Shown here: one piece after another, positions 24,085-63,776 of the stretch
Layout: the number at the start of each line of letters is the position of its first letter
How positions within the stretch are numbered: position 1 is the first letter of the stretch
NCBI RefSeq assembly: GCF_015354445.1
Contig: NZ_JADKYT010000003.1
Span: forward strand, 496,001-560,000
DNA: 64,000 bases
DNA from: Methylophilus sp. QUAN
Lineage (GTDB): Bacteria > Pseudomonadota > Gammaproteobacteria > Burkholderiales > Methylophilaceae
Reading direction: 5' to 3'
Translations under genes and position numbers: made by a program
The notes under the pieces: generated by a model
What the model saw: the letters and a program-made list of their open reading frames with translations, nothing else
Told to the model about the DNA's origin: nothing
Database searches by the model: none

Positions 24085-25632
24085 ATGAAGCAAAACCTGC
24101 AATTACGCATCTCACAAAACCTGGCGCTGACACCGCAGTTGCAGCAGTCTATCCGGCTGTTGCAGTTGTCGACGCTGGAGTTAAGCCAGGAGCTGGAAAC
24201 CATCCTGCAGGAAAACCCGCTGCTGGAAATGGCCGATGGTGAAGAGGGCGAATTTGAAGATAACGCCCCCACCGCAACCGGGGCAGCAGAATCTGAGCTA
24301 CCCGATGCAAGTTCGTTTGATGTCGCGACGCAAACAGAAATTACCGCGCCAGCAGAGACCTTGCGCGAAGAGTTGCACGAGGAGCTCGGTGGCAACGAAG
24401 GCGAGCAGGCCAATCTGAGTGAAGAGTTTTCACCGCCCGAGTTTGAGGACGACTATGAAGAGTTTGGCAGCACCAGCAACTGGGATGAGGCTGGCCGCAA
24501 CAACCTCGATGATGAAGATAGCGATTTCTCACGCCAGGATGCCAGCAACATCAGCCTGCGCGAACACCTGATCAACCAGATGCAACTGGCACACCTGTCT
24601 AAGCGGGACATGGATCTGGTGAAGTTCTTGCTCGACAGCATTAACGATGATGGTTATTTAGAGCAGGATTTACAGGAGATTGTCGACCTGTTGCCACCAG
24701 AATTGGAAATCGAGTTACTGGAGCTGGAAACGGCACTGAAATTGATCCAGAACCTGGATCCAATTGGTGTCGGTGCACGCGACCTGCGTGAATGCATCCT
24801 GCTACAGCTGCAGATACTGCCGCCTGAAACGCCTTATCTGCGTATTGCAATGGCGATTGCCAAAGACCACCTGGCATTGCTGGCCAACAAAGACTTTGTC
24901 AAACTGCGCAAGGTACTCACTTGCGACGAAGCTGCGCTCAAAGGTGCGCAGCAACTGATCCGCCAGCAAAACCCAAAACCCGGTAACGAGTTTGCCAGCT
25001 TTAGCCATGACCACTTTATTCAGCACGATGTGGTGGTCAAAAAAATCAAAGGCATCTGGATGGCGTCGCTCAATGACGGCGTGATTCCCAAGCTACGCAT
25101 CAACCAGCTGTATGCGGATATTCTCAAGCGCAACCGTGAAAGCTCTGGCCAATACCTGCAAAGCCAGATGCAGGAAGCGAAATGGATGATTAAGAATATC
25201 CAGCAGCGCTTTTCGACCATCCTGCGCGTCTCACAGGCGATTGTGGACAGGCAACGCAACTTCTTTGAGCATGGCGAAATTGCCATGCGTCCTTTGGTAT
25301 TGCGTGAGATTGCCGAAGAGCTGGATCTGCACGAAAGTACGGTTTCACGAGTCACCACGCATAAGTACATGCTTACACCGCGTGGTGTGTTTGAGTTGAA
25401 ATACTTCTTCGGTAGCTCGGTAGCGACCGATGCAGGCGGCTCTTGCTCAGCCACGGCGATTCGCGCCCTGATCAAGCAAATGGTGGCCGAAGAAAACCCG
25501 AAAAAACCGCTGTCTGATAATCAGATCACTGACACTCTGGCGCAACAAGGCATTGTGGTTGCACGCAGGACCATCGCCAAATACCGCGAATCACTGAATA
25601 TTCCGCCAGCCAATTTACGCAAATCGCTATAA
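24085..25632 (+). CDS. rpoN: RNA polymerase sigma-54 factor
   Basis: Sigma-54, which recognises -24/-12 promoters and needs an AAA+ activator to open DNA. 515 residues. N-terminal glutamine/leucine-rich activator region (ALTPQLQQSIRLLQL), an acidic linker about 50-150, core-binding domain, and at the C-terminus the RpoN box ARRTIAKYRE. Being in the lptB-rpoN unit is usual; hpf and ptsN, often downstream, are absent and a strong terminator follows directly. Three -24/-12 candidates near 55.0 and 60.5-60.8 kb in this window would be its targets. Confidence 0.97.
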   Translation: MKQNLQLRISQNLALTPQLQQSIRLLQLSTLELSQELETILQENPLLEMADGEEGEFEDNAPTATGAAESELPDASSFDVATQTEITAPAETLREELHEELGGNEGEQANLSEEFSPPEFEDDYEEFGSTSNWDEAGRNNLDDEDSDFSRQDASNISLREHLINQMQLAHLSKRDMDLVKFLLDSINDDGYLEQDLQEIVDLLPPELEIELLELETALKLIQNLDPIGVGARDLRECILLQLQILPPETPYLRIAMAIAKDHLALLANKDFVKLRKVLTCDEAALKGAQQLIRQQNPKPGNEFASFSHDHFIQHDVVVKKIKGIWMASLNDGVIPKLRINQLYADILKRNRESSGQYLQSQMQEAKWMIKNIQQRFSTILRVSQAIVDRQRNFFEHGEIAMRPLVLREIAEELDLHESTVSRVTTHKYMLTPRGVFELKYFFGSSVATDAGGSCSATAIRALIKQMVAEENPKKPLSDNQITDTLAQQGIVVARRTIAKYRESLNIPPANLRKSL

Positions 25633-53335: not shown

Positions 53336-54898
53336 TTACATCTTAGTGCAAGCACTCTCAATCTGTGCCGGACTGATGCGCCATAAATAGTGATCACGTA
53401 CCCTGGCTTGCGGCGCGATATTGGCCAGTAACGGCAGATGTGCCGCGCTTCCAGGATCGCCCGCGACCCAGAGTGACTGACTCGCCTGCAAATGGCATAT
53501 TTGCTGTGCCAATTGCTGGTCGTTCAACAAGTTTTCTGCAGCTACCTGTGGGTTAAAGCGCTTGGCCTCAAGCAATTCTTTTTCCCAACTGTCATCTAAC
53601 ACCTCGCGCGCAGCCGCCGTCCAATCAGCCACGACCCAGGCCGGTGCGGACAAATGCAAATAAAACGGCAAGTCAAACTGATATTTACCCAGCATCACTA
53701 ACTGATCGTTTGCATGGGCGAGCGATTGCACTTGCATGGCCAATTGATAAGAGGCAACTCTTTTTGCATGCTGAATCACCGTCATAATTGCGATCACACA
53801 GGCCACAATGGCCACAGCCAGCGTCAGCCACAAACTACGACGCTTGAATACCGGGTCCTGGCAGGCCTGTACCATCAATAACGCAGTGAGAGTAGCCAAC
53901 GCAGGTAGCACCGGCATGATATAGCCCAGGGGCTTGGATACCGGAATAGAAAAGAACAACAGAATAAAACCCAGCCAGCACAGCATGAGCAAGCCCACGT
54001 CACGTTGCACAGGTGTCCACATCCTAAGCGCCTGCCTACGGAATCTGAGCAACCATAATGACGAAGGTAATGTGAGCAACAAGAGTGCCGGGAAATAAAA
54101 CCAGAACGGCTCCTGATTGTTAAAATTTGATCCGGCAAAACGCTGAAAATGATGATGGATGAAAAAGTAATCCAAAAAGCCTTTGAATTGGGACTCCATC
54201 AACACAAACCAGGGGCTGACCAGCAATAAAAACACCGCCACTGCTGGCCACCAGAAAAAATGCTTGATATAAGCTAACCGTCCACTTGCCAGCAACCAGC
54301 AAAAAATAACGGCCGCAGGCAATACAACGCCGATCAAACCTTTGGCGAGTATTCCTCCCACCGCAAAAAACATGGTCAACATTAAATGGTGTTCCGCTGG
54401 TCGCTCCCTGTCTATGCTCCAGACAAACTCTGCTGCAGACAGGATGGTGAGCGAAATCATACATGCGACCAGCATATCCAGATTGGCAAACTGCGCACTG
54501 GCAAAAAAGAATGGTTGTGTGACCAGCACCACGAAAGCCATCACCGCCGTTCTTTTATTTAAATACAGGAACAAGAACCTGAACAATGCGATGGCCATCA
54601 CTATTGAAGATAACAGCGGCGCGACACGACTACAGAGGAGATGAGGGCCGCAGACGTTGAGGCTGGCGGCAGTCAACCAGTAAAACAGCGGCGGTTTATG
54701 AAAATAAGGCAACCCATCCAGATGTGGCACTAACCAGTCACCAGAAGTTAGCATTTCCCAGGCAATACCTACATAGCGCCCTTCATCCGGCAAAGCAAGC
54801 GGCCTAAACACAGCGGCGACGCCTAACCAAAGAATTGTAACTCCCAACCAGACCAGGTGACTGGAACTGCCCCACTGTTTTAACCGACCTTGCGACAT
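53336..54898 (-). CDS. GT39-family glycosyltransferase, ArnT-like
   Basis: A 520-residue inner-membrane glycosyltransferase of the PMT/ArnT superfamily, which moves a sugar from a polyprenyl phosphate to lipid A, protein or another acceptor. N-terminal half has about 11-12 transmembrane helices; the first periplasmic loop carries the family acid in PLALPDEGRYVGIAWEM and GLPYFHKPPLFYW. A soluble periplasmic C-terminal part follows. ArnT itself adds L-Ara4N, but no arnBCA genes are present here, so the sugar is open. Upstream lies a -24/-12 match with two TGCA palindromes. Confidence 0.85.
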   Translation of the reverse strand: MSQGRLKQWGSSSHLVWLGVTILWLGVAAVFRPLALPDEGRYVGIAWEMLTSGDWLVPHLDGLPYFHKPPLFYWLTAASLNVCGPHLLCSRVAPLLSSIVMAIALFRFLFLYLNKRTAVMAFVVLVTQPFFFASAQFANLDMLVACMISLTILSAAEFVWSIDRERPAEHHLMLTMFFAVGGILAKGLIGVVLPAAVIFCWLLASGRLAYIKHFFWWPAVAVFLLLVSPWFVLMESQFKGFLDYFFIHHHFQRFAGSNFNNQEPFWFYFPALLLLTLPSSLWLLRFRRQALRMWTPVQRDVGLLMLCWLGFILLFFSIPVSKPLGYIMPVLPALATLTALLMVQACQDPVFKRRSLWLTLAVAIVACVIAIMTVIQHAKRVASYQLAMQVQSLAHANDQLVMLGKYQFDLPFYLHLSAPAWVVADWTAAAREVLDDSWEKELLEAKRFNPQVAAENLLNDQQLAQQICHLQASQSLWVAGDPGSAAHLPLLANIAPQARVRDHYLWRISPAQIESACTKM

Positions 54899-55001: not shown

Positions 55002-55017
55002 AGCAAACGGCATGCCG
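55002..55017 (-). promoter_or_regulatory. Candidate sigma-54 promoter of the GT39 gene
   Basis: On the minus strand CGGCAT-GCCGT-TTGCT: the invariant GG and GC are at the exact 10-bp spacing of -24/-12 promoters; two of six bases in the -24 box differ from TGGCAC. Start expected about 54991, leader about 93 nt. Weaker than the two promoters at 60.5-60.8 kb; support comes from the paired palindromes upstream. Confidence 0.5.
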
Positions 55018-55067
55018 ACAAAATAATTATTAATAATCAGACAGTTAAAATAAAAACAAGAATAATC

Positions 55068-55084
55068 TCTGCATCTTTTGCAGA
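55068..55084. promoter_or_regulatory. TGCA palindrome A (candidate activator site)
   Basis: TCTGCA-TCTTT-TGCAGA, perfect 6-bp arms. Centre 72 bp upstream of the -12 GC of the GT39 promoter. Confidence 0.55.
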
Positions 55085-55109
55085 CCACTAATGCCTTTAA
55101 TCAGTGGCC

Positions 55110-55126
55110 AATGCATTTTTTGCAGA
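55110..55126. promoter_or_regulatory. TGCA palindrome B (candidate activator site)
   Basis: TGCA-TTTTT-TGCA core at 55112-55124, 42 bp from palindrome A centre to centre and 114 bp from the -12 GC. Confidence 0.55.
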
Positions 55127-56824: not shown

Positions 56825-57616
56825 TTACAAATACTTTTTCGCCAAGGCGACTTGTTGTTTGAGGCCCACATTCACCAACCTGGGGGCCAATCCATTAAGC
56901 CAGGCAAACAGGCTTTGTGGCTGGCCGATAAACAACTCCTGTTTATCTTTCTGCAATGCCTGCACAATTTTATCTGCCACGTCTTGTGGACTATCCACGG
57001 CTTGGCCAGAAGCCTGCCACATGGCGTTGGTGCGGTCATCGTTCATGGGGGTGGCTATCGCGCGTGGCGCAATATAGGTGATGCCAATATTGGTATCCAC
57101 TAATTCGCGGCGCAAGGCCTGGCTAAAGCCATGGATAGCAAATTTGCTCGCGCAGTAGGTAGCAAAATGCGGAAAGCCTAGCGAGCCAAAGATGGAGCCG
57201 ACAAACGCCAGGTGACCTCGCCCGCGTTGCAAAAAGTAAGCTACGAATTCGCGGCTTAATACCAGCGTTGCCGTGACATTGGTATGCACCATATTATCGA
57301 TGCTGACTTCTGTTTGCTGCGCAAACTCGGTGAATTCAATCATTCCGGCATTGTTAATCAGTAAGTCTACATGCCCCATCTCACGCAGCGATTGTTTTAA
57401 CACCTGGCTGGCCATATTGGGCTGGGCCAGATCGGTGACCATAATATGCGACTTGCCCCCTTGTGCAGCGACCCTTTTTTGCAGCGCATGCAACTTAACC
57501 GGGTCGCGACCAACCAGCCCGACCACGGCGCCTTGCGCAGCGAGCGCCAAGGCCAGCTTAGCACCCAGGCCACCGGTTGCGCCTGTTAACACCACATGCA
57601 GGTTACGTAACTCCAT
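56825..57616 (-). CDS. Short-chain dehydrogenase/reductase
   Basis: A 263-residue classical SDR. Cofactor loop T-G-A-T-G-G-L-G at 11-18, NNAG, catalytic Ser in FVGSIFGSLG and Y-C-A-S-K as the YxxxK pair. The C-terminal region after residue 240 is hydrophobic, suggesting a lipid-like substrate. Last gene of a four-gene minus-strand operon (hemolysin-family protein, AMP ligase, diiron enzyme, SDR), 9 bp after the previous gene with AGGAG in the gap. Role inferred: carbonyl reduction in that pathway. Confidence 0.9.
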   Translation of the reverse strand: MELRNLHVVLTGATGGLGAKLALALAAQGAVVGLVGRDPVKLHALQKRVAAQGGKSHIMVTDLAQPNMASQVLKQSLREMGHVDLLINNAGMIEFTEFAQQTEVSIDNMVHTNVTATLVLSREFVAYFLQRGRGHLAFVGSIFGSLGFPHFATYCASKFAIHGFSQALRRELVDTNIGITYIAPRAIATPMNDDRTNAMWQASGQAVDSPQDVADKIVQALQKDKQELFIGQPQSLFAWLNGLAPRLVNVGLKQQVALAKKYL

Positions 57617-57625
57617 GACTGACTC

Positions 57626-58321
57626 CTAAGCGGCTGCAACCAGCGGTTGGCTGGCCGCTTGTGCCGCCACATGTTTGAAAATATCGCCATACAGACGGTA
57701 AAAGCGCTTGGCGGCATGAATAATGATTTGCTGATCTTCTGGCTTGGTCACTTGGTTCATCAAGCTCTCATAAAAGGTCACATGGCTGAGATCCAGCGAG
57801 CCGTGTGAAAACAGGTAGCTGAAGGCTTTTTTAGGCAATTTGAGCGCCTGCATGATTTTCTCACCCGCCTGGGTAGCCACTGCCGTGCTGGTGCCTTCCA
57901 GTACCAGCACCATGCCAAAAAAGCCAAGTGGATTGACGCGACTGATCATGTCGTACGCATACGCCACCATCACTTCAGTCTCATGACAGGCGGCATCTGC
58001 AGCAGTTGCACTATGGCGCACCGACTCTTTGTCGCCACCGCTAGCGGCAATATCATTGAGCACCCATTCCTGATGGCCCATTTCTTCTTCGATATATTCA
58101 CCAATCGCCGTACGCAGCCATTCGTATTCACCACTGAGTCGGCCACCGCATGCCATCAGTAATGGCGTCGTATGCTTAACGTGGTGATACGCCTGGGTGA
58201 GAAATGCCCGATATGTCTCCAGGGTGATATTGCCTTGTGCGCCTTGCACAATCAGCGGCAAGCTCATCAATGTCTGACGCTCCTGCTCGGTCGCGTTTAA
58301 TAATTGCTGATAAAAAGTCAT
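57626..58321 (-). CDS. Heme-oxygenase-fold diiron oxidase/oxygenase (HDO superfamily)
   Basis: A 231-residue all-helical protein of the TenA/heme-oxygenase fold. It has the diiron ligand pattern of the HDO enzymes rather than a heme or thiaminase site: E-E-E-M-G-H (78-83), E142 in LVLEGTST, and H173...D177-x-x-H180 in HGSLDLSH. Known members (UndA, CADD, SznF, BesC) cleave or oxygenate small acids and amines using O2. It abuts the AMP-ligase stop with no gap. Its substrate is not known; a fatty acid or acyl derivative made by the neighbouring ligase is the simplest guess. Confidence 0.8.
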   Translation of the reverse strand: MTFYQQLLNATEQERQTLMSLPLIVQGAQGNITLETYRAFLTQAYHHVKHTTPLLMACGGRLSGEYEWLRTAIGEYIEEEMGHQEWVLNDIAASGGDKESVRHSATAADAACHETEVMVAYAYDMISRVNPLGFFGMVLVLEGTSTAVATQAGEKIMQALKLPKKAFSYLFSHGSLDLSHVTFYESLMNQVTKPEDQQIIIHAAKRFYRLYGDIFKHVAAQAASQPLVAAA

Positions 58322-59812
58322 TTATATTCCTTCGTAGATCGCATTGATTTCAGCAACATAAGCAGCTGCAATCACATCGCGTTTTAAACGGCCATTGGCC
58401 GTCAATTGTCCGTTATGCGGGCTAAATGGCTGATCAGCAAACACCACATCGCCCACCTGCGCGTAGTCTGGTAGCTGTTGATTCACCTGCGCAATGGCCT
58501 GCGCCACCTGCTCAGCGCTGTATTGCGGCTGTGGTACCACAATTGCCACATTAAACGGCCTCGCTTCTCCAAACACACACACCTGCAGCAATGCTGGCTG
58601 GTGTATTAAAGTACTCTCCACCCACTCAGGCGAAACATTGCGCCCAAACGAGGTAATAAACATATTTTTTTTGCGGCCCGACAGATAAACGTACCCATCT
58701 TCATCCTGATAAGCCAGGTCACCCGTGGCCAGATAGCCTTCTTCGTCCAGCACCGGCGCGACAATACCGCCTTCGGGTTGGGTGTAGCCGTGATACAAAG
58801 CGCCCTTTACCCAAAGCTCACCGGTCATATCCACGCGTAATTGCACATGGGGCAAGGGCTTGCCTATGCTGCCCGGCTTGTGTGACTGTGGTGTATTGAG
58901 GGCCACAACAGACGCACACTCTGACAATCCATAGCCTTCAAACACAGGTAATCCTAGCGCATGGGCCTGCAGGATCAACTCTGGCACCACCTTGGCGCCA
59001 CCGACGGCCACAAAGCGCAACTGCGTCAGCGCGGCCTGTCCGGCTTGCACATACATCACCAACGCACGTAGCAATTCAGGAATCAGAATCGCAGTGCTCG
59101 CACGGCTGCCTTGCAAGCCCCGATACAAGCGGCTGATATCAAACTGGCTACCAGTAAAACCCACCGCCTGGCATGGATACACAACCACCGTCGCCCCTGA
59201 AATCAGGCTGGCATAAACACCCGCCACGTTTTCCAGTAAAGTGGCCAGCGGCAACACGCAAAAATGGCGATCAGCGGCGCCTGGCTGTATCAGGGTGGCA
59301 ATAGAGTTCGCGACCTGCCACATGGTGTGCGCTGACAAACACACACCTTTGGGCGCGCCCGTCGTGCCCGAGGTATAGGTAATTTTATCGGCTGCCGCCA
59401 CGCGATCATGGGTATGAACACGCAAGACTGCCACGGTTTGACCCGCCACTCTCCACTCAGCAAGCAGCGTACTGCCTGGGTAAAGCTGTTGCCAGGCCGC
59501 GGGCATATCTGTTAATACCAGGCTGACACCGGCATCCACAATCGCATGCTGTTTTTGCGCCGCAGTAAAAAATGCCGGGACTGGCACGTTACTCCAACCC
59601 GCCGCCACGACTGCCAGGTCCAGCACAATCCAGGCTGGGCTATTATCCAGTGCCAATGCCACACTGGCCCGATTTGTCAGCGCCTTCAAAGCGCCAGACA
59701 CCCGTGCAATTTCAGCCGCCAGCTCACTGTAAGTCAGTTGTGTAGATTGCCCCTCGAGGGCGACACGTGTTGGTGATTGTATTGCCTGTGCCTGAATCTG
59801 TTGTAATAGCAT
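58322..59812 (-). CDS. AMP-dependent acyl ligase
   Basis: A 496-residue ANL-superfamily adenylating enzyme. Phosphate-binding loop Y-T-S-G-T-T-G-A-P-K-G at 146-156, GYGLSECASV, and GDLAYQDEDGYVYLSGRKKN. The final motif is L-T-A-N-G-R-L-K-R-D: arginine 475 stands where the A10 catalytic lysine is normally found. Sequence style is that of long-chain acyl-CoA ligases, but substrate is unknown. It starts 44 bp after the hemolysin-family gene and ends directly at the diiron gene. Confidence 0.88.
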   Translation of the reverse strand: MLLQQIQAQAIQSPTRVALEGQSTQLTYSELAAEIARVSGALKALTNRASVALALDNSPAWIVLDLAVVAAGWSNVPVPAFFTAAQKQHAIVDAGVSLVLTDMPAAWQQLYPGSTLLAEWRVAGQTVAVLRVHTHDRVAAADKITYTSGTTGAPKGVCLSAHTMWQVANSIATLIQPGAADRHFCVLPLATLLENVAGVYASLISGATVVVYPCQAVGFTGSQFDISRLYRGLQGSRASTAILIPELLRALVMYVQAGQAALTQLRFVAVGGAKVVPELILQAHALGLPVFEGYGLSECASVVALNTPQSHKPGSIGKPLPHVQLRVDMTGELWVKGALYHGYTQPEGGIVAPVLDEEGYLATGDLAYQDEDGYVYLSGRKKNMFITSFGRNVSPEWVESTLIHQPALLQVCVFGEARPFNVAIVVPQPQYSAEQVAQAIAQVNQQLPDYAQVGDVVFADQPFSPHNGQLTANGRLKRDVIAAAYVAEINAIYEGI

Positions 59813-60536: not shown

Positions 60537-60552
60537 TGCAAGCACCATGCCA
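60537..60552 (-). promoter_or_regulatory. Sigma-54 promoter of the four-gene operon
   Basis: On the minus strand TGGCAT-GGTGC-TTGCA, matching TGGCAC-N5-TTGCW at 15 of 16 scored or free positions. Start expected about 60526, leader about 28 nt. Confidence 0.75.
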
Positions 60553-60605
60553 GCGCCAATTACTCATAATAATCATACAGTTACGATTAACCACCGCAAC
60601 CACAC

Positions 60606-60622
60606 CCTGCACTTTTTGCAGG
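60606..60622. promoter_or_regulatory. TGCA palindrome C (candidate activator site)
   Basis: CCTGCA-CTTTT-TGCAGG, perfect 6-bp arms. Centre 76 bp from the -12 of the minus-strand promoter, 163 bp from that of the plus-strand promoter. Confidence 0.6.
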
Positions 60623-60650
60623 TAGATTGCCATACATTTAATTCATAACC

Positions 60651-60663
60651 TGCATTTTTTGCA
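60651..60663. promoter_or_regulatory. TGCA palindrome D (candidate activator site)
   Basis: TGCA-TTTTT-TGCA, 43 bp from palindrome C, about 119 bp from the -12 element of each of the two divergent promoters. Confidence 0.6.
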
Positions 60664-60763
60664 TAAAACTCAAAAGAAAATCATTTTCATTACCAACAAG
60701 ACACATTAATTTCCTCAACAAAATCAGCACCTTAAGTAGCCATACATCAACTTAATTATAAAG

Positions 60764-60779
60764 TGGCACACCGCTTGCA
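60764..60779 (+). promoter_or_regulatory. Sigma-54 promoter of the PAP2-eptA operon
   Basis: TGGCAC-ACCGC-TTGCA, a full match to the -24/-12 consensus. Start expected about 60790; the leader of about 100 nt contains the hairpin TTGCA-TTTT-TGCAA (60860-60873). Confidence 0.8.
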
Positions 60780-60889
60780 TTTATGGTCAGAGTTTTTGAA
60801 AAAATGATGTATTCTGACGCTTGTCTGACTATCAACTATTTTCAAAAAATAACAACCCATTGCATTTTTGCAATCAACACAAAATAGAA

Positions 60890-61591
60890 ATGATAAAAAG
60901 TCCCTGGTTACCTAAGCCAACGTTGGCAGCACTTTGGTGCATTTGGATCGCCCTCGCGATTGGCATCGTCTGGCTGGCGAATGCCACGTCTATTGACCTG
61001 ACATTGGCTGACCAGCAATTTGATTTTTCGCAGCACGCCTTTACCCAAAAGCATAACTTCTTGTATGAAACCGTCATGCATGTGTATGCCAAACACCTGT
61101 TTACCGTGATCTGGTTAATCCTGTTATTGCTAGCCTGGCTGCCCGAGCGCCTGTTAGGCCATCGCCTTTCCGCGGCAACCAGTTACAAACTACGCTGGAT
61201 TGTCCTGCTGGCTTTGCTCAATGCGATTGTCGTCTCCTGCCTTAAACACCAAATGCCGCACGCCTGCCCCTGGGATATCGTACGCTACGGCGGCAGCGCG
61301 CCATGGGTGCCTACCTTCACCAGTCATCCAGCGCTAGAAGCTGGCCATTGCTTTCCGGCAGGACACACGACCAGCGGCGTGTGGCTATCTGCACTCGGTT
61401 TACTGTGGTTACCGCAAGCGCCTCGCAAAGCCTTATTGGTAGCTATTACTGGGCTTGTGGTCGGCTTCGCGCTGGGTTGGGCGCAGCAAATCCGCGGCGC
61501 CCACTTTTTATCGCACACCCTGACCTCGCTGTGGCTGATGTGCGGCTGGTTATTAATGGTATTCACTTTTTCCAAGAGTCGTATTGAATGA
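60890..61591 (+). CDS. PAP2-family membrane phosphatase
   Basis: A 233-residue, six-helix membrane phosphatase of the PAP2 superfamily, acting on lipid phosphates or pyrophosphates at the periplasmic face. The three motifs are recognisable in variant form: K-H-Q-M-P-H-A-C-P-W, F-P-A-G-H-T-T-S-G and R-G-A-H-F-L-S-H. Likely target is lipid A or undecaprenyl phosphate, because eptA overlaps its stop (ATGA). ATG 60890 is preferred; TTG 60821 lies too close to the sigma-54 start site and has no Shine-Dalgarno. Confidence 0.85.
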   Translation: MIKSPWLPKPTLAALWCIWIALAIGIVWLANATSIDLTLADQQFDFSQHAFTQKHNFLYETVMHVYAKHLFTVIWLILLLLAWLPERLLGHRLSAATSYKLRWIVLLALLNAIVVSCLKHQMPHACPWDIVRYGGSAPWVPTFTSHPALEAGHCFPAGHTTSGVWLSALGLLWLPQAPRKALLVAITGLVVGFALGWAQQIRGAHFLSHTLTSLWLMCGWLLMVFTFSKSRIE

Positions 61592-63267
61592 AGATATTCG
61601 CAATGTTTACCCGCACACTACGCGCGCTGTTTACCCCGCAAATCTGCCTGATCTGGGGGGCGAGCCTTTGGCTGATGCTCACCAGCAACCACGCCCTGTT
61701 TGAACATCTGCTCAATCTTTACCCATGGAACGCACATAACGCAGGATTTATCGTCAGCATCAGCCTGTTTTTTACTTTTAGCATCACCTTATGGCTGATG
61801 CTGCTCAGCCATGGCAAATCAGCACGCTGGGTGTTGGCCATCATTCTGCTGTCTGCCGCCTGGGCCGCGTATTACATGGATGAGTTTGGCGTCATTATTG
61901 ACCACGTCATGCTGGACAATGCGGCCAAAACAGATACCCAGGAGGTCATGGGATTACTGTCCTGGGGATTTTTTATCAAGATGCTATTGCTGGGCATGTT
62001 ACCCGCATTCATCCTGATCAAAAAAGTGCCAGCCCGTTTTTTTCAGCGCGACCCGATCAGCGTCCGCCTTAAGCAGATTGCCTTGTTACTGTTAGGCATG
62101 ATCCTGGTGGTGATTCCATGCAGCGCGGATTACGCCACGTTTGTGCGCGAGCATAAAATGGTGCGTATGTATGCCAACCCAACATTCTTCCATTACTCAG
62201 TGGTGAAATGGACTTCGAAAAAACTGTTTACGCGCAGCATCACCGGCTTGCAAAAAACAGCGACGGATGTGGTCAATGTAGAAGCGGATCAACATCATGA
62301 ACTAATTATTATGGTGGTTGGCGAAACTGCGCGTTTTGATCGTTTTTCATTGAATGGTTACTCCCGCATCACCAACCCCAGATTAGCCAAAGAAAATGTC
62401 GTGAGCTTCAAGCAAGTCAGTTCTTGCGGGACATCAACCGGTGTGTCTGTGCCGTGCATGTTTTCCATGCTGACGAGGAAACAATATGACGAAGACAAGG
62501 CCTTGCATATGGAGAATGCACTGGATGTCTTAAACCGTGAAGGCATCAAAGTGCTGTGGCGCGATAATAACTCTGACTCCAAAGGCGTCGCCTTGCGCGT
62601 CCCTTATGAAGACTTCCGTTCCCCGGCCCACAATCCGGTGTGCGATGACAATGAATGCCGTGACATCGGTATGCTGAACGGACTGGACAAGTTTATTGAA
62701 AAAAACAAAGATCATGACATCCTGATCGTGCTGCACCAGATGGGCAATCATGGTCCGGAATACTATCGCCGCTATCCAGATGAGTTCAAGAAATTCACGC
62801 CTATTTGCAAAACCGGCCGCTTGTCAGAGTGCTCACAACAAGAGATTGATAACTCATACGACAACGCCATTTTATATACGGATTACTTCTTATCAGAGGT
62901 GATTCAGTTCTTGAAGAAATATGACAGCAATCGCGAAACCGCCATGCTGTATGTGGCAGATCATGGCGAATCACTGGGTGAACATGGCATATACCTGCAC
63001 GCAGCACCCTATATGATTGCACCCAAAGAGCAAACCCACGTACCAGCAATCCTGTGGGTAGGTCAGCATTTTGACTACCAATTGCCACAAATTAAACCTT
63101 ATGAAAACTACGCGTTAAGTCATGACGATGTATTTTGCACCTTGCTCACAGCCTATGAGCTGAAATCGCAAACATGCCATGCCGAGTTTGGCTGGCTGGC
63201 ACAAAACCGTGAGCTACAAGAGGAACAGCGCAAACACTTGCATCCTATAAAAGCAAGTACGCACTAA
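61588..63267 (+). CDS. eptA: Lipid A phosphoethanolamine transferase
   Basis: EptA-type enzyme, 559 residues, adding phosphoethanolamine from phosphatidylethanolamine to lipid A phosphates, which lowers surface charge and gives polymyxin resistance in other bacteria. Five N-terminal transmembrane helices (to about 180), then a periplasmic alkaline-phosphatase-fold domain. Zinc ligand E246 in VVGETARFDR, nucleophile T282 in SCGTSTGVSVPC, further ligands in HQMGNHGPEYY and DHGESLGEHG. Disulfide cysteines present. Coupled to the PAP2 gene by a 4-bp overlap. Symbol by family; a PmrC/MCR-type acceptor difference cannot be excluded. Confidence 0.9.
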   Translation: MKIFAMFTRTLRALFTPQICLIWGASLWLMLTSNHALFEHLLNLYPWNAHNAGFIVSISLFFTFSITLWLMLLSHGKSARWVLAIILLSAAWAAYYMDEFGVIIDHVMLDNAAKTDTQEVMGLLSWGFFIKMLLLGMLPAFILIKKVPARFFQRDPISVRLKQIALLLLGMILVVIPCSADYATFVREHKMVRMYANPTFFHYSVVKWTSKKLFTRSITGLQKTATDVVNVEADQHHELIIMVVGETARFDRFSLNGYSRITNPRLAKENVVSFKQVSSCGTSTGVSVPCMFSMLTRKQYDEDKALHMENALDVLNREGIKVLWRDNNSDSKGVALRVPYEDFRSPAHNPVCDDNECRDIGMLNGLDKFIEKNKDHDILIVLHQMGNHGPEYYRRYPDEFKKFTPICKTGRLSECSQQEIDNSYDNAILYTDYFLSEVIQFLKKYDSNRETAMLYVADHGESLGEHGIYLHAAPYMIAPKEQTHVPAILWVGQHFDYQLPQIKPYENYALSHDDVFCTLLTAYELKSQTCHAEFGWLAQNRELQEEQRKHLHPIKASTH

Positions 63268-63776
63268 TTACTACTATCGCAACGCAAGGCTGGCGGCTCT
63301 GACGTCAGCTTGCTGGGGGTGAGCCAAAACAAGGGCTTGATGCGTTCATCCACATGGCACGCATCGATATAGCCAATGGCACCATCGGTCTCAGCCACAT
63401 AACGGATCATGGCTTCTTCTGACTGCACGGTATAAGGCGGTTGCACGCCGTGAAAATAGAGGCCGTTCCAATAATTCACCTGTGATCTCGGTGTGCTATG
63501 CAATACTTGCTGTGAAAACTTTAAGCGCAGCGGGTGCTCACTATGCAAATTCACCGGGTGCAAAGCCTGCCCATGCGAGGCATAAAGTTTCTTGCGCCAA
63601 AAAATCAACCCCAGTTCATCGGCATGAATATCAGGCGCCAACCCGGCTTGCACAGGCACAATCACCGCAATAATGCGATTATCCTCAACTGCCACCACTG
63701 GCTTCGCCAGTAACAGGCCGATTGCACAGGCAGCATACAGCCAGCGGCGCATAGTAAATGTCGTACTGCACTGCAT
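63264..63776 (-). CDS. PstS-like periplasmic binding protein
   Basis: A 170-residue exported protein with a signal peptide (LYAACAIGLLLAKPVVA) and a short phosphate-binding-protein-like fold (IFWRKKLYASHGQALHPVN, AVAETDGAIGYIDACHV-type segment: VAETDGAIGYID). It is half the size of true PstS and resembles the small orphan substrate-binding genes found beside porins. The ATG 63776 overlaps the stop of the porin gene as TAATG. The 3' end overlaps eptA by 4 bp on the other strand. Ligand unknown. Confidence 0.7.
   Translation of the reverse strand: MQCSTTFTMRRWLYAACAIGLLLAKPVVAVEDNRIIAVIVPVQAGLAPDIHADELGLIFWRKKLYASHGQALHPVNLHSEHPLRLKFSQQVLHSTPRSQVNYWNGLYFHGVQPPYTVQSEEAMIRYVAETDGAIGYIDACHVDERIKPLFWLTPSKLTSEPPALRCDSSN

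Follow-up and report, generated by a model that had tools for sequence, protein, structure and literature searches.

A 64,000-nt window of the Methylophilus sp. QUAN genome (positions 496,001 to 560,000 of contig NZ_JADKYT010000003.1) contains two divergently oriented operons, and the gap between them carries a candidate σ-54 promoter for each operon and two palindromes. Coordinates without a prefix refer to this window; C1, C2 and C3 denote contigs of the 3.15 Mb genome, and L and G numbers the loci and genomes examined. The left operon, on the minus strand, starts with a gene for a T_hemolysin family protein (PF12261; 59857-60498), followed by genes for an AMP-binding ligase (58322-59812), an iron-containing redox enzyme of the Haem_oxygenas_2 family (57626-58321), and a short-chain dehydrogenase (SDR; 56825-57616), all assigned by domain matches. 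A literature search on this operon found nothing useful. The right operon, on the plus strand, encodes a PAP2 phosphatase (60890-61591; domain match), which scores below the cut-offs of the lipid A phosphatase models it matches, and a phosphoethanolamine-lipid A transferase of the EptA type (61588-63267). Both this gene and a second EptA gene elsewhere in the genome exceed the NF028537 cut-off of 500 (594.3 and 592.1 bits), and neither reaches the cut-off of 660 for the PRK11598 EptA equivalog (461.2 and 445.2).

A first-pass annotation of this DNA had placed two outward-facing σ-54 promoters and a pair of TGCA palindromes in the gap, and all four elements were recovered at their positions when the sequence was re-read and searched by pattern. 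The left -24/-12 match, TGGCAT-N5-TTGCA (TGGCATGGTGCTTGCA; 60537-60552, minus strand), lies about 39 bp upstream of the T_hemolysin start codon, and its position is conserved in relatives. The right match, TGGCAC-N5-TTGCA (TGGCACACCGCTTGCA; 60764-60779, plus strand), was also recovered behind the second palindrome in a longer-gap search (C3:556651). Both have the GG and GC doublets of a σ-54 promoter 10 bp apart within TGGCAY-N5-TTGC, and the genome encodes σ-54 itself: rpoN (24085-25632, plus strand) is a reading frame with the only PF04552 match in the genome (C3:521150-521623). The putative upstream activating palindromes between the promoters, TGCA-CTTTT-TGCA (60608-60620, within CCTGCACTTTTTGCAGG) and TGCA-TTTTT-TGCA (60651-60663), are 43 bp apart, about four helical turns, and also fit the motif model described below. 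A third palindrome-like string, TTGCATTTTTGCAA (60860-60873), sits in the PAP2 leader directly before the start codon; it was dropped as a third box, since among the 20 neighbourhoods fetched the nearest relative alone (L119:8862) has it at the corresponding position.

The single motifs are common. The window has 13 TGCA-N5-TGCA matches and the genome 280 (reversed pattern, 28), and the earlier estimate of about one chance match per 65 kb was wrong, as dinucleotide shuffles average 6.04 per 64 kb. Similarly, GGCAYN5TTGC occurs 196 times in the genome (reversed pattern, 32). What carries weight is therefore how the elements are arranged and conserved. The genome scan for palindromes behind -24/-12 matches that the annotation had suggested, run with TGCAN5TGCA-N40-70-GGCAYN5TTGC, returned three close arrangements and none for the reversed pattern. 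All three are intergenic and precede the T_hemolysin gene, an ArnT-like gene, and the second EptA gene. From the counts of 196 and 280, about 0.5 palindromes 40-70 bp behind a -24 element are expected by chance, and fewer than 0.001 when a second palindrome is required 38-46 bp further up, against the three observed. The annotation had also raised the doubt that palindromes might be scattered evenly through the genome; this holds for single ones (the 280 above) and fails for the paired, promoter-linked ones, which are conserved in relatives. The longer-gap search gave six matches, among them the outer boxes of known sites (C1:1313277, C3:551003, and C3:556538); C1:574617 and C2:170163 were taken as chance.

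The second pair, overlooked in the first pass, lies at 55070-55124, 5.5 kb from the first, and has its own -24/-12 match. Its promoter-proximal palindrome (55070-55082) is followed 42 bp away by the other (55112-55124), and the promoter match (CGGCATGCCGTTTGCT; 55002-55017, minus strand) has C in place of the first T of TGGCAY-N5-TTGC. The predicted third target is a PMT-family glycosyltransferase (53336-54898, minus strand; PF13231) that scores 175.9 bits against NF009784, below the cut-off of 567, and is here called ArnT-like only. The third set (C1:1313277-1313348) lies before the second EptA gene (L053:4554-6242), which is itself divergent from genes for a small exported protein, an OEP outer-membrane efflux protein, and an HlyD/CusB-type protein (L053:6506-9406).

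The geometry is fixed in relatives. Across 17 T_hemolysin upstream regions from these relatives, 9,690 bases in total, k = 5 accounts for 31 occurrences of TGCA-Nk-TGCA and each other k from 0 to 20 for zero to three. The two boxes are 41-44 bp apart in 13 of 15 pairs (9 and 33 bp in the remaining two), and all 17 regions have the nearer box 53-57 bp upstream of the left -24 element. A motif model was built from 38 distinct sites chosen without regard to flanks or spacer composition, and it shows C/G at the flanks (76%) and a spacer rich in A/T. Applied to 27 distant regions outside the training set (28 loci were given, and L212 was dropped for having no T_hemolysin), the model found a palindrome at p ≤ 0.05 in 24 and at p ≤ 0.01 in 15, based on 100 shuffles for each region. 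The box spacer is 6 in four Solimonas records and one Azoarcus record.

Of 20 neighbourhoods fetched around matches to the sensor kinase described below, 19 were usable (L123 is too short), and 12 of these have both promoters and at least two strict palindromes. In L133 and L134, where the outer box is degenerate, both promoters accompany a single strict palindrome; L135 retains the left promoter with a single palindrome, and L137 shows the left side only. The operons are separated in L136, with boxes at each promoter; in G066 the right operon with its promoter and a box pair (L127) and T_hemolysin with its own boxes (L077) are on different contigs. In G110, whose genome has no T_hemolysin match, the right promoter remains with a single palindrome (L129). 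The proposal that one enhancer pair serves both operons is thus the best-supported reading, given this fixed geometry and the retention of boxes where the operons separate. Boxes before other genes in relatives are better evidence of independence than the T_hemolysin regions. Boxes with a -24/-12 match occur before PMT genes (L121, L124, L125, and L141), before the second EptA gene (L140, L143, and L144), before metallophosphatase/sulfatase-superfamily genes (L150, and L151 with a 42-bp pair), and before an outer-membrane barrel gene (L152); another sulfatase superfamily gene (L145) has one box only. Separately, a 42-bp box pair and a -24/-12 match lie upstream of a gene for a 110-residue protein with His-rich stretches and no Pfam match in one relative (L139:2366-2878).

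Sequences resembling IHF sites lie between boxes and promoters. By consensus match, the left arm has AATCATACAGTTA (60571-60583; 8 of 9 positions), the right arm AATCAGCACCTTA (60722-60734; 9 of 9), and the second pair AATCAGACAGTTA (55035-55047; 9 of 9), all on the plus strand. Of 20 distinct arms, 18 have such a sequence (8 or 9 of 9), and in 17 of these it sits 18-20 bp upstream of the -24 element. The count covered 21 regions, one of them entered twice, and 19 matched; when the same 21 were shuffled, 4.2 matched on average and never more than 11. The arms had been pre-filtered for at least 58% A+T, with the T_hemolysin and PAP2 arms of this genome added by hand.

The first-pass annotation had left the activator without a name, and a candidate can now be given. 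The most likely activator, judged from sequence, is an NtrC-family response regulator of 452 residues (L052:4051-5409; C3:562550-563908) encoded directly after the gene for its Cache-domain kinase (L052:2324-4048; C3:560823-562547), the two genes lying 0.8-3.9 kb beyond the window end. The regulator has the architecture of group I of this family, with a receiver, a GAFTGA-bearing AAA+ domain, and a Fis-type helix-turn-helix (HTH), and accounts for one (C3:562979) of the genome's PF00158 σ-54 activator domain matches. Its best NCBIfam match is the AtoC equivalog, at 456.3 bits below the cut-off of 714. It is also below the cut-offs for ZraR and for NtrC (TIGR01818; 430.3 bits against 558.6), the latter reached by another protein of the same genome (L056; 716.6). 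Two further genes separate EptA from the kinase-regulator pair. One, p170 (63264-63776, minus strand), was modelled using AlphaFold2 with relatives (pLDDT 92), and the fold resembles part of the PstS phosphate-binding proteins, as a single lobe (TMq about 0.5). The other, p345, lies mostly beyond the window end and is modelled in the same way as a porin-like barrel (pLDDT 88). We would guess at a phosphate-like signal for the kinase. In a Methylotenera bin, p345 is in two frames at L138:10286-11303 and L179:8894-9911, which are maybe one record, and the split may reflect a frameshift or an assembly error.

The kinase, T_hemolysin, and the motif tend to occur together. Among 150 genomes of the family, the kinase sensor is present in 69 and T_hemolysin in 72, with both in 62, neither in 71, and one only in 17 (Fisher p 3e-23). 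Fifty of the 150 carry the strict motif, 37 of the 69 with the kinase and 13 of the 81 without it (Fisher p 2e-6). These uncut motif counts are the fair ones, since a 44% identity cut (motif in 26 of 31 kinase genomes) was picked after seeing the data. From the 13 genomes with the motif and no kinase, nine loci were fetched, G022, G027, G045, G089, and G126 being outside this sample; seven matches are in reading frames, one (L146) is outside a frame, and L060 gave no readout. The match in L064 is in a reading frame as well. One match from each of 18 genomes of the same genus was inspected (L068-L085), along with part of the further matches in those genomes; of the 18, 16 are intergenic and two (L074 and L082) lie within frames.

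A scan with the kinase sensor gave 66 named loci, 45 of which have T_hemolysin in the DNA examined, each of these together with p170. The T_hemolysin-linked kinase loci include Methylotenera, Nitrotoga, Solimonas, Azoarcus (where the record ends before the regulator), and Panacagrimonas, whose locus, as far as examined, shows neither an SDR nor a Haem_oxygenas_2 match. There is no PAP2 match in the Nitrotoga, Solimonas, Azoarcus, and Panacagrimonas loci, and an EptA-like match stands at the far side of the operon in two Solimonas loci (L207 and L212). This distribution suggests, short of proof, that regulation of the hemolysin-like operon came first.

We consider it highly probable that the gap contains two divergent σ-54 promoters served by one two-palindrome enhancer, with the linked NtrC-family regulator as the activator. 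The whole is best read as an undescribed regulon in which a two-component system acts through σ-54 on the modification of lipid A and the envelope. The kinase, perhaps with p170 and p345, would sense a periplasmic signal and phosphorylate the regulator, which would then bind both palindromes and oligomerise. Bends at the IHF-like sites could carry it to RNA polymerase-σ-54 at either promoter, activating T_hemolysin, the AMP ligase, Haem_oxygenas_2, and SDR on the left and PAP2 and EptA on the right, while similar enhancers would switch on the ArnT-like gene and the second EptA. Binding, phosphorylation, IHF bending, σ-54 dependence, the signal, and the effect on lipid A are all features that we infer from sequence.

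Several observations weigh against this regulon. The motif is not universal, with 32 of the 69 kinase genomes (G110 and G145 among them) having no strict match, and the reversed pattern matches once in the 150 genomes (G006). No T_hemolysin was found in the DNA examined at 21 of the 66 kinase loci, some of them incomplete; those where none was found near the kinase include Methylobacillus gramineus (L192), M. glycogenes (L202), Methylovorus (L198), and L219-L222. The ten kilobases around the kinase and regulator genes contain no TGCA palindrome with a spacer of 4-6, so there is no sign of autoregulation. Three of the 27 distant regions fail at p ≤ 0.05, and a strict -24/-12 match is missing from four Solimonas regions. 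The p-values overstate the support because the relatives share descent and are not independent, so that the figures gauge conservation and not separate origins. The third set is irregular, with overlapping boxes 31-40 bp from a further box. Exact matches to the IHF consensus are sparse (4 of 17 left and 6 of 16 right arms), which is why the 8-of-9 match was used. Pairs 42 bp apart are also present within reading frames at C1:121009 and C1:1698990, with no close -24/-12 match, and a palindrome pair alone therefore proves nothing. Finally, an intergenic single palindrome lies 65 bp before a -24/-12 match in G053 (L067), upstream of a gene off the envelope theme; this site may belong to another activator. 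The gene encodes a 427-residue exported protein resembling an ABC substrate-binding protein.

The same architecture could be driven by a different σ-54 activator, which we think improbable. The genome has 12 PF00158 matches, seven of them strong, and linkage is no proof of binding; the other candidates are NtrC, an orphan regulator (C1:1467024), and proteins that we take to be PilR-like, AcoR-like, and SfnR-like. In the HTH, the PilR-like protein shares 50% identity with the linked regulator, as much as the regulator's own Solimonas orthologues do (46-50%), a further point against our candidate. However, it is the linked kinase that co-occurs with the target gene and the box, the genes are linked in distant genera, and the regulator's recognition helix, ISERSLW(N/Y)KL, is largely kept in relatives (VSERTIWNK in Solimonas) and is unlike the corresponding helix of the other six strong activators. 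PrsR was rejected as the activator: the regulator scores 414.6 bits against TIGR02915 (cut-off 502.6), and the TGCA-N5-TGCA box lacks the TTTACA end of the PrsR motif (PMC1569441). It is more doubtful still that the palindromes bind a non-σ-54 regulator or a nucleoid protein and that the -24/-12 matches are incidental. Such strings are common, as the 196 in the genome attest, and the boxes are AT-spaced TGCA repeats, yet the nearer box keeps its distance to the -24 element in every one of the 17 regions and the layout repeats before other genes. That common motifs were simply picked from an AT-rich gap is hardly credible, since the frequency of both single motifs and the two in-gene 42-bp pairs are outweighed by the spacer and distance counts and by conservation in distant regions.

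The proposed σ-54 regulon can be compared with known systems. PmrAB and PhoPQ are two-component systems that control the lipid A phosphoethanolamine (eptA) and aminoarabinose (arnT) transferases. Their regulators are of the OmpR type, to which these lipid A transfers are usually ascribed, and act with σ-70, whereas the candidate here is a σ-54 activator. Somewhat speculatively, and with slightly more to doubt than to recommend it, the p170/p345/kinase/regulator module may be a σ-54 counterpart of PmrAB, in which the hemolysin-like operon would be the older target, making an envelope or acyl product, and PAP2, both EptA genes, and the ArnT-like gene would have been added as targets in Methylophilaceae through acquisition of the same two-box enhancer, the signal being a periplasmic anion such as phosphate. 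A σ-54 switch would place surface charge under strictly activator-dependent control.

The nearest known system in sequence and operator is AtoSC/atoDAEB of Escherichia coli, likewise an NtrC-family regulator with a kinase. AtoC is 44% identical to the regulator, and its operator (GCTATGCAGAAATTTGCACA; TGCA-N6-TGCA) is present as two inverted copies upstream of a σ-54 promoter (PMC3118216). The AtoC operators have a spacer of 6, are 21 bp apart, and serve short-chain fatty acid targets, whereas the boxes here have a spacer of 5 and are 41-44 bp apart; the four Solimonas records and the Azoarcus record noted above share the AtoC spacer of 6. The nearest in design is AioXSR/aioBA, which combines a periplasmic binding protein, a kinase, and an NtrC-family regulator, and has two palindrome-like sites and a -24/-12 element upstream of the target where the regulator is present (PMC3834237). 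AioXSR targets arsenite oxidase, in contrast to the envelope and hemolysin-operon genes here, and p170 resembles only part of PstS. The PrsK/PrsR regulon of PEP-CTERM proteins is alike in its kinase-regulator pair and in joining a σ-54 promoter to an activator box, and has an exopolysaccharide role (PMC1569441; PMC9850573); PrsR motif 1 is 17 nt long and ends in TTTACA, unlike the box here (PMC1569441). Control of the bacterial exterior by σ-54 was proposed by Francke et al. (2011; PMC3162934), the retrieved text of which has lipopolysaccharide nine times and phosphoethanolamine not once. In PMC10482368, mentions of polymyxin are confined to the reference list. Among the matches listed in a search of open-licence PMC titles and abstracts, to which subscription journals do not belong, we found no description of this regulon.

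The proposed regulon gives the operon of T_hemolysin, AMP ligase, iron redox enzyme, and SDR a likely regulator and promoter, and the function of this operon becomes testable in laboratory methylotrophs. The operon stands beside the kinase in the 45 of 66 loci noted above, with the four genes not all present in each. The p170-p345-kinase-regulator block is duplicated about 16 kb apart on JAGVMP010000011.1 (L171 and L174). In some relatives, including L120, L128, and L130, the right operon begins with an additional gene coding for some 570-590 residues (22-28% identical to EptA), which belongs to the sulfatase superfamily in both loci tested (L128 and L130).
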